In this document: in pieces, positions 28,687 to 36,024 of the stretch
Layout of the letters: every line of letters begins with the position of its first letter
Numbering within the stretch: the first letter of the stretch is position 1
Assembly: GCA_947074185.1 (NCBI GenBank)
Contig: CAMTOO010000011.1
Coordinates: forward strand, 1-37,654
Direction of reading: 5' to 3'
DNA from: an uncultured Negativicutes bacterium
Lineage (GTDB): Bacteria; Bacillota; Negativicutes; Acidaminococcales; Acidaminococcaceae
Length of the DNA stretch: 37,654 bases
Made by a program: the position numbers and the translations under genes
The notes under the pieces: model-generated
Database searches by the model: none
What the model was told of the DNA's origin: nothing
The model's input: the letters and a program-made list of their open reading frames with translations, nothing else

Positions 28687-31308
28687 ATGAATTATATGAC
28701 TGGTAATGAACTAAGGGAAAAATTCATAAAGTTTTTTGAAGATAGACAGCATTTAATGCTTCCAAGCGCGTCGCTGATTCCACAAGATGATCCGACGTTA
28801 CTTTTGATTGGTGCAGGTATGGCTCCATTTAAACCGTTTTTCACTGGAAAAATGAAACCACCAGCGCCAAGAATTACAACTTGTCAAAAATGCGTGCGTA
28901 CAGGCGATATTGAAAATGTTGGCCGTACTGCTCGTCATCATACATACTTTGAAATGTTAGGAAACTTTTCTTTTGGTGATTATTTCAAAAAAGAAATTAT
29001 TCCTTGGAGCTGGGAGTTTTTAACTGTTGAGCTCGGACTTCCTGCTGATAAACTTTGGATTACTATTCATACAGATGATGATGAAGCATACGATATTTGG
29101 TTAAATGACGTAGGTATTCCTGCTGAACGTATTGTTCGTATGGAAGAAAACTTCTGGGAAATTGGTAGTGGTCCTTGTGGTCCTTGTTCTGAAATCCACA
29201 TCGATTTAGGCGAAGAACGTGGTTGCGGTCCTGATTGCAAAATCGGATGCGAATGCGATCGTTATTTAGAACTTTGGAATCTTGTATTTACTCAATACAA
29301 TCAAAACGAAGATGGAACTTATACTCCTCTTGCTAGTAAAAACATTGATACTGGTGCAGGTTTAGAACGTCTTGCTTCTGTTATTCAAGGTAAGCCTTCT
29401 AATTTTGAAACTGATTTAATGTTCCCAATTATTGAATACGCTGCTAAAATAGCTGACATAGAATATGGTAAAAATGAAAAAACTGATATCTCTTTAAAAG
29501 TTATTGGTGATCATGTTCGTAGTATGACATTTATGATTGGCGATGGTATTTTACCTTCTAATGAAGGTAGAGGATATATTTTGCGTCGCATTTTGCGCCG
29601 TGCAATTAGACATGGACGTTTAATCGGTATTGATAAAATGTTCCTTGATGGTGCAGTAGATGTTGTTATTAATATGTTTGGTAAAGCATATCCAAACTTA
29701 GTTGAAAAAAGCGACTACATTAAAAAAGTTGTTGAAATGGAAGAAACTAGCTTCTTACGTACTTTACGTGCAGGTAGCGAACTTTTAAACGAAGAAATCG
29801 ACAAATTAAAAGCTGAAGGTAAAACTGTTCTTGACGGTAATACTGCTTTTAAATTAAATGATACTTTTGGTTTCCCTTGGGAACTTACTGCAGAAATCCT
29901 TGAAGAAAATGGCATGACTATGGACAAAGATGCTTTTGATGCAGCTCTTGAAGTGCAACGTAAAATGGCACGTGAAGCGCGTGACGATAAAGCAGGTAGA
30001 CCAGTTGTTTATAACACTACTAGTCTTGATGTACCTAGTTTAAAAGTTGATGAAACAGCTAAAGCTGGTAAAATTCTTGCAATTTATCCTGCAGATAGTG
30101 AACAACCTATTGAAAGTGCTAGTGATGGTGCTGATGTAGCAGTTATTTTAGATGTTACAGCTTTCCATGCTGAAGGTGGCGGACAATTAGGTGATGTTGG
30201 AACTATTATGGCTCCAACTGGTATTATCGAAGTTAATGTTACTAAAAAATTGCCTGATGGTGCAACTATCCAAATTGGTAAAGTTACTGAAGGCGTGATT
30301 AATCTAAATGATGAAATCACTTATAGCGTTAATTACGTGCGCAAAAGTGAAATCGCTCGCAATCATACTGCTACACATCTTTTACATGCAGCACTTAAAA
30401 CAGTTTTAGGTGATCACGTAAACCAAGCAGGTAGTTATGTTGGCGCAGATAGACTTCGTTTTGACTTCTCTCATTTCTCTCAAGTTACTGATGTAGAGCT
30501 TAAAGAGGTTGAGACTATCGTTAATGACGAAATTTTAAAAGCTAAAAATGTTATTGTAGAAGAACTTCCTATTGAAGAAGCTAGAGAAAGAGGCGCAATG
30601 GCTCTTTTCGGTGAAAAATATGGTGATGTTGTTCGTGTTGTAAGTATTCCGGAGTTCTCTATGGAATTCTGTGGTGGTAGCCATGTTACTAACACAGCAC
30701 AAATTGGTTTGTTCAAAATTGTTAGTGAATCTTCTACTGGCGCTGGTGTAAGACGTATTGAAGCAGTTACAGGACATGGTGCTTTAGAATATGTAAATGA
30801 TATGGAAAAAACTCTTAAAGATATCGCTGGCGAGCTTCGTTGCCGTGTGGTAGATGCAAAAGCTAGATTGGAAACTTTGATTAGCGATGCAAAAGAAGAT
30901 AGCCAAAAAATCAAAGCTCTAGAAGCTCAAATGGCAAAAGCCCAAGTAAGTGATGTAGATGATCAAATTCGCGAAATTAAAGGCATTAAAACTTTAGTGC
31001 AAAAAGTTAGCGTTGAAAATATCGAAGCATTGCGTAATCTTGGCGATCAAATGCGTGATAAAGTTGGTGGTGTAGTTGTTTTAGCATCTGTTTTAGGTGA
31101 TGATAAAATTAACATCTTGGCAATGGCAACGAAAGACGCTGTGGCACAAGGCATCCACGCTGGTAATATCGTTAAAGAAGTTGCAGGTCTCTGCGGCGGT
31201 GGCGGCGGTGGTCGCCCTGATATGGCGCAGGCTGGAGCAAAAGATGCAAGCAAACTTGATGCGGCACTTGAAGCAGCTTGGTCTGTAGTGGAAAATCAAA
31301 TTAAATAA
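28687..31308 (+). CDS. alaS: Alanyl-tRNA synthetase
   Basis: This 873-residue class II enzyme is of full length. The N-terminal catalytic domain (LIPQDDPTLLLIGAGMAPFK, TCQKCVRTGDIENVG, HHTYFEMLGNFSFGDY) is followed by the tRNA-binding region (GRGYILRRILRRAIRHG). The editing domain has zinc ligands His560 and His564 (HTATHLLH) and Cys662 and His666 (CGGSH). The C-Ala domain ends with LCGGGGGGRPDMAQAG. ATG 28687 is followed in frame by another ATG four codons on; the first has the better SD spacing. Monocistronic. Confidence 0.98.
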   Translation: MNYMTGNELREKFIKFFEDRQHLMLPSASLIPQDDPTLLLIGAGMAPFKPFFTGKMKPPAPRITTCQKCVRTGDIENVGRTARHHTYFEMLGNFSFGDYFKKEIIPWSWEFLTVELGLPADKLWITIHTDDDEAYDIWLNDVGIPAERIVRMEENFWEIGSGPCGPCSEIHIDLGEERGCGPDCKIGCECDRYLELWNLVFTQYNQNEDGTYTPLASKNIDTGAGLERLASVIQGKPSNFETDLMFPIIEYAAKIADIEYGKNEKTDISLKVIGDHVRSMTFMIGDGILPSNEGRGYILRRILRRAIRHGRLIGIDKMFLDGAVDVVINMFGKAYPNLVEKSDYIKKVVEMEETSFLRTLRAGSELLNEEIDKLKAEGKTVLDGNTAFKLNDTFGFPWELTAEILEENGMTMDKDAFDAALEVQRKMAREARDDKAGRPVVYNTTSLDVPSLKVDETAKAGKILAIYPADSEQPIESASDGADVAVILDVTAFHAEGGGQLGDVGTIMAPTGIIEVNVTKKLPDGATIQIGKVTEGVINLNDEITYSVNYVRKSEIARNHTATHLLHAALKTVLGDHVNQAGSYVGADRLRFDFSHFSQVTDVELKEVETIVNDEILKAKNVIVEELPIEEARERGAMALFGEKYGDVVRVVSIPEFSMEFCGGSHVTNTAQIGLFKIVSESSTGAGVRRIEAVTGHGALEYVNDMEKTLKDIAGELRCRVVDAKARLETLISDAKEDSQKIKALEAQMAKAQVSDVDDQIREIKGIKTLVQKVSVENIEALRNLGDQMRDKVGGVVVLASVLGDDKINILAMATKDAVAQGIHAGNIVKEVAGLCGGGGGGRPDMAQAGAKDASKLDAALEAAWSVVENQIK

Positions 31309-34034: not shown

Positions 34035-34078
34035 AAAAGGTATCTTAGAAATTATCTAAGATACCTTTTATTTTTTTG
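34035..34078. terminator. Bidirectional terminator
   Basis: A 15-bp stem, AAAAGGTATCTTAGA with its complement at 34055-34069, has a 5-nt loop and lies between convergent genes. Confidence 0.92.
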
Positions 34079-34080
34079 TT

Positions 34081-34389
34081 TTATTTTAAACCTTTTGAAG
34101 AATTCTTTAAAGCTTCTAAAAGCTCTCCTGTACATTCGGTTTTGCCTTGGCATACCTTTTCAAGCGCAGCAAAGTTTTTGAATTCGCTACCCCAGATAAA
34201 TGAGTCACGTGAGTCGTAGCAAGCAAGGATAAGCCCTTTAGTTTTATCTAAAGGAGTTTTACCAGCATCATCAGTGATGATAATGTAAGTGCCGTCCTCA
34301 AAGTCCATTCCAAAGACTTCGATTTTATCTTCTTCTGTTATGTCTTTCCAAAAACCTAATTTTTCAAAATTAGTATCAAAATCTTGCAT
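34081..34389 (-). CDS. Small acidic protein of unknown function
   Basis: This 102-residue cytosolic protein starts at ATG 34389 with SD AAGGAGTG on the minus strand. It has an acidic beta-rich middle (EVFGMDFEDGTYIIITDDAG) and a C-terminal helix (ELLEALKNSS). The layout suggests a small alpha/beta domain with no membrane segments. It diverges from the zinc-ribbon gene, sharing the 34390-34497 region. Family not recognised. Confidence 0.75.
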   Translation of the reverse strand: MQDFDTNFEKLGFWKDITEEDKIEVFGMDFEDGTYIIITDDAGKTPLDKTKGLILACYDSRDSFIWGSEFKNFAALEKVCQGKTECTGELLEALKNSSKGLK

Positions 34390-34440: not shown

Positions 34441-34469
34441 TTGTTTTTGTCCAGCAATAATGGTAAAAT
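34441..34469 (+). promoter_or_regulatory. Promoter of the zinc-ribbon mini-protein
   Basis: TTGTTT (34441-34446), a 17-nt spacer, and TAAAAT (34464-34469) with an extended TGG element. SD GAAAGGGG (34482-34489) lies 8 nt before ATG 34498. Confidence 0.6.
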
Positions 34470-34497: not shown

Positions 34498-34698
34498 ATG
34501 AAAAAGAAACAAAAAACAGAAGTAGCAATGCAGATAGAATTCATTTGTCCTAAATGTAATACTCATCTAGCTTGGGCGCTTCCTTCTGCAGAGATAAGTT
34601 GTCCTAAGTGTGGTAAATGGGTCACAAAGAAAAATAGTAAACGGGAAAGTGAACTTTATCTACCTCTAAATGATGATCAACTAAGTTTATTTAAATAA
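34498..34698 (+). CDS. 66-residue zinc-ribbon protein with C-terminal sliding-clamp binding motif
   Basis: The start ATG 34498 has a well-placed SD. The longer TTG frame from 34441 starts inside the promoter, and the ATG at 34493 is followed at once by a stop. After a basic N-terminus, Cys17-x2-Cys20 and Cys35-x2-Cys38 (CPKC twice) form a probable zinc ribbon. A basic linker (KKNSKRE) leads to the C-terminus DDQLSLFK. QLSLF at 61-65 is an exact match to the bacterial beta-clamp (DnaN) binding consensus QL[S/D]LF. The combination suggests a small replication- or repair-associated clamp partner, but function is inferred only from motifs. I recognise no described family with this layout. Confidence 0.82.
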   Translation: MKKKQKTEVAMQIEFICPKCNTHLAWALPSAEISCPKCGKWVTKKNSKRESELYLPLNDDQLSLFK

Positions 34699-34722: not shown

Positions 34723-36024
34723 ATGGAAAAAATATTAGAACAGGCAAAAGCGCTACAAGCAGAACTAGTAGAACGTAGAAGAGATTTACATATGCATCCT
34801 GAAACAGGCTGGACAGAATTTAGAACTGCATCAATGGTTATCAAAGAACTTCAAGCATTAGGTTACGAAGTTTCTTATGGCGATGATGTTATTGTTGAAG
34901 CTGAAATGATGGGATTACCATCAGAAGATGTTTTAGAAAAAGCTATGGAACGTGCGATTAACGATGGTGCGGACCCTAAACTCGTTGAAGCAATGAGTGG
35001 TGGTAAAACAGCTGTTATGGGTGTTATGAGATTTGCTAACCCTGGTAAAACAATTGGTATGCGTTTTGATATGGATTGTAATGATGTTGGTGAAGATCAA
35101 AGTCCTGAACATTTACCAGCTAAAGAGGGCTTCTGTTCTAAATATCCTAATGCAATGCATGCTTGTGGACATGATGGACACGTTTCTGTAGGTCTTGCAG
35201 TTGCAAAACTTGTAGCAGAAAATAAAGAAAGCATGTCTGGTGCTTTTAAAATATACTTCCAACCAGCAGAAGAAGGTGTGCGTGGTGCACGTGCAATGGT
35301 TGCTAAAGGTATTGTAGATGATGTTGACTACTTCTTTGGTGGACATATTGGATTTAAAGCAGATAAAGAAAATAGTTTAATCTGTGTAACTGGCGGGTTA
35401 CTTGCTACTACTAAACTAGATGCAAACTTCAAAGGTCGCTCTAGTCATGCAGGCCTTGCGCCTCAAGATGGTAAGAATGCACTTTTAGCATCTGCTGCAG
35501 CAAGTGTTGCTTTACATTCTATTTCTAGACATGGTGCTGGTGCATCTCGTATTAATGTGGGTGTATTACAAGCTGGTACTGGTCGTAATGTGTTGCCAGA
35601 TGTAGCAGTTATGAAGTTAGAAACTCGTGGTGCTAATACAGAAATTAATGAATATATGGTTACAGAAGCAAAACGCATGATTAATGCAGCTTCTATGATG
35701 TATAATACGGAAGTTGTTATTAGCGAAGCTGGCGGCGCACCTGCTTGTGAAGTTGATATGGAATTAGGTGCAGAAGTTGGTAAAATTGCTAAAGCAACTG
35801 GTATTTATGAAGAAGTTATACCATTTGTTGATTTTGGTGGTAGTGAAGATTGCTCTTACTTTATGGAAAGAGTTCAACAAAAAGGTGGACGTGCAATTTA
35901 TATGGGTTATGGAACTTCTATAAAAGCAGGTCACCATAATAAAAGTTTTGACTTTGATGAGTCATGTATGTGGGAAACAGTTGGTTTCTTAACAAAAGTA
36001 GTAGAAGAATTTGGTAAAAAATAA
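34723..36024 (+). CDS. M20 family amidohydrolase, AbgA-like (p-aminobenzoyl-glutamate hydrolase subunit A-like)
   Basis: This 433-residue metallopeptidase is close to AbgA. The insertion AEMMGLPSEDVLEKAMERA and the phrases GGKTAVMGV, FQPAEEGVRGARAMVAKGIVDDVDYF, RINVGVLQAGTGRNV and the late IKAGHHNKSFDFDES all match that subfamily. Metal ligands are visible: Cys148 and His150 (HACGHDGH), Glu183-Glu184, His208, and a His in GHHN. AbgA normally pairs with AbgB, but no second M20 gene is present. It would release p-aminobenzoate and glutamate, or act on another aminoacyl amide. SD AAAGGAG precedes ATG 34723. Confidence 0.9.
   Translation: MEKILEQAKALQAELVERRRDLHMHPETGWTEFRTASMVIKELQALGYEVSYGDDVIVEAEMMGLPSEDVLEKAMERAINDGADPKLVEAMSGGKTAVMGVMRFANPGKTIGMRFDMDCNDVGEDQSPEHLPAKEGFCSKYPNAMHACGHDGHVSVGLAVAKLVAENKESMSGAFKIYFQPAEEGVRGARAMVAKGIVDDVDYFFGGHIGFKADKENSLICVTGGLLATTKLDANFKGRSSHAGLAPQDGKNALLASAAASVALHSISRHGAGASRINVGVLQAGTGRNVLPDVAVMKLETRGANTEINEYMVTEAKRMINAASMMYNTEVVISEAGGAPACEVDMELGAEVGKIAKATGIYEEVIPFVDFGGSEDCSYFMERVQQKGGRAIYMGYGTSIKAGHHNKSFDFDESCMWETVGFLTKVVEEFGKK

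Follow-up and report, generated by a model that had tools for sequence, protein, structure and literature searches.

A small zinc-ribbon protein of the Acidaminococcaceae with a conserved C-terminal tail, a candidate ligand of the clamp DnaN

An uncultured Negativicutes bacterium of the family Acidaminococcaceae encodes a 66-residue zinc-ribbon protein that ends in QLSLFK, a tail that matches the printed consensus for peptides that bind the clamp, DnaN. That this is a clamp-interacting protein, as an earlier note on the same DNA had proposed, is well supported by sequence: the tail is kept in 36 of 36 homologues in the family and in 18 of 29 retrieved from the wider class, and the homologues that lack it group together on a tree of the ribbon core. 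Going by sequence, we lean towards a DnaN-tethered zinc-ribbon adaptor or traffic regulator that would act at replication sites.

The window, that is, the whole stretch of 37,654 nucleotides that was analysed, is contig C11 of an assembly that totals 1.57 Mb and comprises 82 contigs. The gene lies at 34498..34698 on the forward strand, as its translation and its homologues in the family indicate, and reads MKKKQKTEVAMQIEFICPKCNTHLAWALPSAEISCPKCGKWVTKKNSKRESELYLPLNDDQLSLFK followed by a stop. The translation bears out the open reading frame of 66 residues described earlier, with CPKC pairs at C17/C20 and C35/C38 and QLSLF one residue from the end. The zinc-ribbon core from C17 to C38 (CPKC ... 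CPKC) occupies 34546..34611 (+), and its four cysteines are present in all rows of our alignments A1 and A2; the candidate clamp-binding pentapeptide, residues 61-65, occupies 34678..34692 (+) and is marked out by the conservation of Q, L and F. The well-placed Shine-Dalgarno (SD) sequence claimed for the gene is present, with GAAAGGGG shortly 5′ of the ATG, and SD-like runs also precede the starts of relatives (21 rows examined, our own locus counted twice). A likely promoter with the extended -10 that had likewise been claimed was found by eye at 34441..34469 (+); it reads TTGTTT-17-TAAAAT, with TGgTAAAAT at 34461-34469 and TTGTTT 17 nt upstream. It is absent from the output of a consensus promoter scan because its -35 element matches at only three of six positions; upstream of the gene in relatives, a TATAAT was seen by eye in 14 of the 14 examined. 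A spurious open reading frame was rejected on the homologues, the SD-like runs of the relatives and the conservation of the protein with varying codons. The gene is probably co-transcribed with the M20 peptidase gene downstream (34723..36024, +; Pfam PF01546), which in many relatives is replaced by a different gene.

A homologue is present in 36 of 59 genomes of the family, including Phascolarctobacterium, Succiniclasticum and other Acidaminococcaceae, and one more genome of the order, G060, brings the count to 37 of 63. The raw count for the order was 39, including weak matches in G029 and G040 (one a 458-residue frame, one spanning a stop), both of which were left out. The G060 gene appears as a pair (C4:3547-3705 and 30684-30842; L083 and L084) whose members are identical and lie as mirror images around the midpoint of a contig of 34,388 bases, and which is therefore probably one gene and an assembly artefact. 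Scanning the genome contigs with the 66-residue protein as a single sequence gave no matches, and scanning them with alignment A1 gave 34 loci; L081 and L082 among these, from Aminicenantes, were rejected as different, longer proteins that lack the tail. The gene is missing from 26 of the 63 order genomes, some of them nearly complete, which indicates that it is dispensable.

All 36 family homologues keep both CxxC pairs and the Q, L and F of a C-terminal QxxLF (QTVLF in 13, QLTLF in 12, QMVLF and QLVLF in four each, QLSLF, QLRLF and QVVLF in one each). The earlier note had set its proposal against homologues that keep the zinc ribbon and vary at the C-terminus; within the family this is not what is seen, since tail and cysteines are retained together throughout. 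Across the homologues Q and F are each written with two different codons and L with six, and it is therefore the protein, not the DNA, that is conserved. The distance from the last cysteine to the Q is 22 or 23 residues in every case, despite the variable sequence between them, and the three residues before the Q are DSD, DDD, DSE, NDD, DSN or GSD, with at least one acidic residue in all 36. Among 473 neighbouring ORFs of at least 80 residues, none carries Q[LMIVTA]x[LMI]F, or even the looser Qxx[LMI]F, in its last 13 residues, and the motif occurs anywhere only five times in their 130,044 residues; a chance motif was rejected on the conservation and on these control ORFs.

The consensus printed for clamp peptides is QL[S/D]LF or QxxLF, with positions 1, 4 and 5 critical, in the portion of PMC12309361 available to us, which also gives QLSLF as the PolC motif of B. 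subtilis, with a Kd of 3.8 uM for its DnaN; to call the peptide 'perfect', as was done before, is thus fair. The flanks of clamp motifs are mostly acidic, according to the accessible part of PMC11139829. The host's own PolC ends in ETAQISLF and its DnaE contains QMGLF, and the tail therefore has the look of a true DnaN ligand. The MutS of the host lacks a QxxLF close to its C-terminus, so that one usual client is no guide in this host. Several observations count against a clamp ligand, among them the T at motif position 2 in the 13 family members with QTVLF and the 11 motif-less proteins among the 29 distant homologues. Another concerns the sole dnaN found in the assembly, which lies outside the window (G000:C41:195-1295, reverse strand; L172) and has an in-frame TAG about two thirds of the way through. 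Short motifs are easily mimicked, and the tail could bind another partner, for instance RNA polymerase or a protease adaptor, and merely resemble a clamp motif, as the tail-less distant ribbons might also suggest. We consider this quite improbable in view of the residues that the tail allows (Q fixed; L/M/V/I/T; free; L/M/I; F fixed), which match the clamp rules in the printed passages at hand, of the acidic flank, which also fits, and of the motifs of the same kind in the host PolC and DnaE.

In the wider class the comparison of ribbon and C-terminus gives a divided answer. From 380 class genomes searched, 29 small-ORF matches outside the order were retrieved; the linker cannot be aligned among them, and the motif is kept in 18 (as QLLLF, QLQLF, QVQLF, QLKMF, QLILF, QLKLF, QLTIF, QMELF, QLELF, QIAMF or QMAMF) and absent in the other 11, which cluster on the core tree. 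In that tree, built with the tail left out, the motif label needs two changes, against a mean of 9.8 when labels are shuffled, and none of 500 shuffles gave a value as low; the motif is therefore a stable property of subfamilies, on a tree of 32 chosen cores and 48 columns that is poorly resolved, with 17 of 29 inner branches open. The counts given here use all 29 retrieved class loci and not alignment A2, which holds motif-bearing rows only and in which the invariant Q and F are by choice. Since 11 of the 29 lack the motif, the ribbon must be useful without the clamp in some lineages, and we take the motif-less small zinc ribbons (L090, L091, L095, L100, L102, L104, L111, L113, L114, L115 and L118) to be a sister group with another task. 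Several of them begin TQPLLVPF and end ITA, L118 sits among phage-like genes, and one genome, G078, carries one motif-bearing and one motif-less copy.

Outside the 29 stand weak small-ORF matches of the class in G316:C246, G238 and G296:C71, the last with no motif in its translation, and long-frame matches of about 360-540 residues, mostly from one class family, which were taken as other zinc-ribbon proteins and left out. In a sample of the phylum, 31 of 398 genomes, our own included, match A2; the motif ending was found in none of the 26 loci with a translation examined, of 30 foreign matches. A common theme among the neighbours of the distant class copies was sought and not found.

In an AF2 model from 19 sequences the core is ordered, with block means of 81-86 pLDDT (residues 11-40), falling to 65 for residues 51-60 and 54 for residues 61-66, with the motif at the very C-terminus; the low values of the tail (54-65) suggest that it may be flexible. 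The protein has a pI of 9.2; its first 50 residues carry a net charge of +7 and its final 16 one of -2, and the basic core would suit contact with nucleic acid. A named zinc-ribbon family was rejected: no curated cut-off was reached in Pfam (best Zn_ribbon_Top1, 22.9 against 32 bits) or in NCBIfam (best the YnfU family, 21.2 against 36), and the members of A2 match many zinc-ribbon models, weakly. The best PHROG match, phrog_4875 (1.2e-6), covers the ribbon only (residues 6-50) and is of unknown function; PADLOC gave one weak match, HEC-08 (E 0.0049), Rfam gave none, and no family library searched recognised an enzymatic domain. Fold searches with the protein found no PDB match at E <= 0.001 and a best E of 0.033 against viral models, and the best VIA match, Z 4.2 (rmsd 3.5, 52 aligned), leads to archaeal ribosomal zinc ribbons and MCM zinc domains, that is, to a common ribbon. 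A literature search, covering openly licensed papers only, found no zinc-ribbon clamp binder of this kind. The description of the protein as undescribed fits these results, as no curated family, fold match or paper describing it was found.

Taken as a clamp ligand, the protein would dock its C-terminal QLSLF in the protein-binding pocket of DnaN, and the variable linker of about 22 residues would leave the basic ribbon able to contact DNA, RNA or a further protein of the fork next to the clamp. With a motif of the same kind as those of PolC and DnaE, it would have to share the clamp or compete for it, and for that reason it would most likely serve as a non-essential adaptor of the clamp, or regulator of its traffic, where DNA is replicated or repaired. 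Known DnaN clients (PolC, DnaE, Pol II, Pol IV and Hda) have, in the sources as available, the same pentapeptide with an acidic flank, placed at the C-terminus in PolC as it is here; they are polymerases or AAA+ proteins, in contrast to a protein of 66 residues with no recognised enzymatic domain. YabA, a zinc-binding initiation regulator of low-GC Gram-positives, is likewise small, zinc-binding and linked to DnaN. According to the accessible text of PMC4705661, YabA has an HCCC site, H-x-C-x11-C-x2-C, and a helical tetramer domain at its N-terminus, and it lacks the clamp pentapeptide, in contrast to the CxxC...CxxC and QLSLF found here. An orthologue of YabA was rejected on the different cysteine site and on its profile, PF06156, which matches none of the 63 order genomes, our own included, and does match the controls B. 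subtilis and L. lactis. In archaea, TIP is a 64-residue PCNA-binding regulator of one lineage, and Nre/NreA combine a Cys4 domain with a C-terminal PCNA motif (PMC4929162, in part); clamp, motif and folds are all different, and the likeness is one of design only.

Two phage-borne relatives keep the tail, as QLILF and QMILF. One, in G298, is flanked by a primase-helicase-like gene and, on the other side, by terminase-like genes (labels assigned by eye), on a stretch that is viral contig L207; the other, 56% identical, occupies the same position on viral contig L208 and ends in QMILF. Neither matches PHROG at 0.01, and searches of phage and plasmid collections gave no convincing match. Viral contigs searched with A1 gave no match, and with three other single proteins either none or the known contig again plus one non-relative. 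These relatives raise the question of a clamp inhibitor of phage origin, in which the tail would block the DnaN pocket, restraining replication or other clients, and the ribbon would be no more than a stable carrier. Phages do target DnaN (PMC3594737, as far as the text at hand goes), and archaeal TIP inhibits PCNA, in the available part of PMC4929162; Gp168 of phage Twort is also a phage protein that targets DnaN, but according to PMC11139829 (seen in part) it binds the DNA channel and not the pocket, in which our tail would dock. Yet in the family the gene is chromosomal, in a fairly fixed place and with its own promoter, the ribbon is conserved as much as the tail, beyond the need of a carrier, and inspection by eye showed no phage genes around most of the class copies retrieved. 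An inhibitor therefore seems unlikely, and an adaptor or regulator remains our preferred reading.

Divergent from the zinc-ribbon gene lies a linked gene for an acidic 102-residue protein of unknown family (34081..34389, reverse strand), which the earlier note had not picked out and which is linked by co-occurrence. Of the 63 order genomes, 41 have the partner, namely 37 of 37 with the zinc-ribbon gene and 4 of 26 without it (G011, G012, G020 and G061), a Fisher p of about 3e-13 that ignores shared ancestry. In all 37 the two genes point away from each other, and in 36 of these fewer than 300 nt lie between them (about 1.7 kb in G034); in G061 the partner faces an M20 gene with no zinc-ribbon gene between. 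The partner has a pI of 4.5 and a fairly confident AF2 model with a mean pLDDT of 83.8; searches found no family, and the best fold match is weak (4o6g, Z 5.1, rmsd 3.3, 71 aligned). Between the partner gene and a SIMPL-domain gene lies a perfect hairpin of 15 bp, flanked on either side by T tracts (34035-34069), likely a bidirectional terminator.

A linked function of the two proteins is possible, but part of the correlation comes from shared ancestry and synteny, and some of the 26 genomes without the zinc-ribbon gene are incomplete; that the partner belongs to a module with the zinc-ribbon gene is put forward only as a hypothesis. In its fullest form, a basic zinc-ribbon protein and a divergent acidic protein would regulate each other, and one of the two would contact the clamp, as the co-occurrence, the divergent arrangement and the opposite charges would allow. 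We think this very doubtful, as no copy of the partner was found close to the 29 distant homologues of the class, and it occurs alone in four genomes, and synteny within one order could give the same picture.

A wider reading, which we offer as a long shot, is that this is a bacterial equivalent of the small clamp regulators of archaea: a zinc-ribbon switch, tethered to the clamp, that with the acidic partner would decide which proteins use DnaN, or link DnaN to replication initiation, in a lineage without YabA, and that would have passed between chromosomes and phages. DnaN binding itself is directly testable, since cultured strains carry the gene (Succiniclasticum ruminis DSM 9236 and Phascolarctobacterium faecium DSM 14760). 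Were it confirmed, this bacterial class would gain a clamp partner that has gone unannotated and that, at only 60-80 residues, is below the size to which routine annotation gives a name. It would provide a compact natural tool for studying how partners use the clamp, and a candidate for the control of replication in the absence of YabA.
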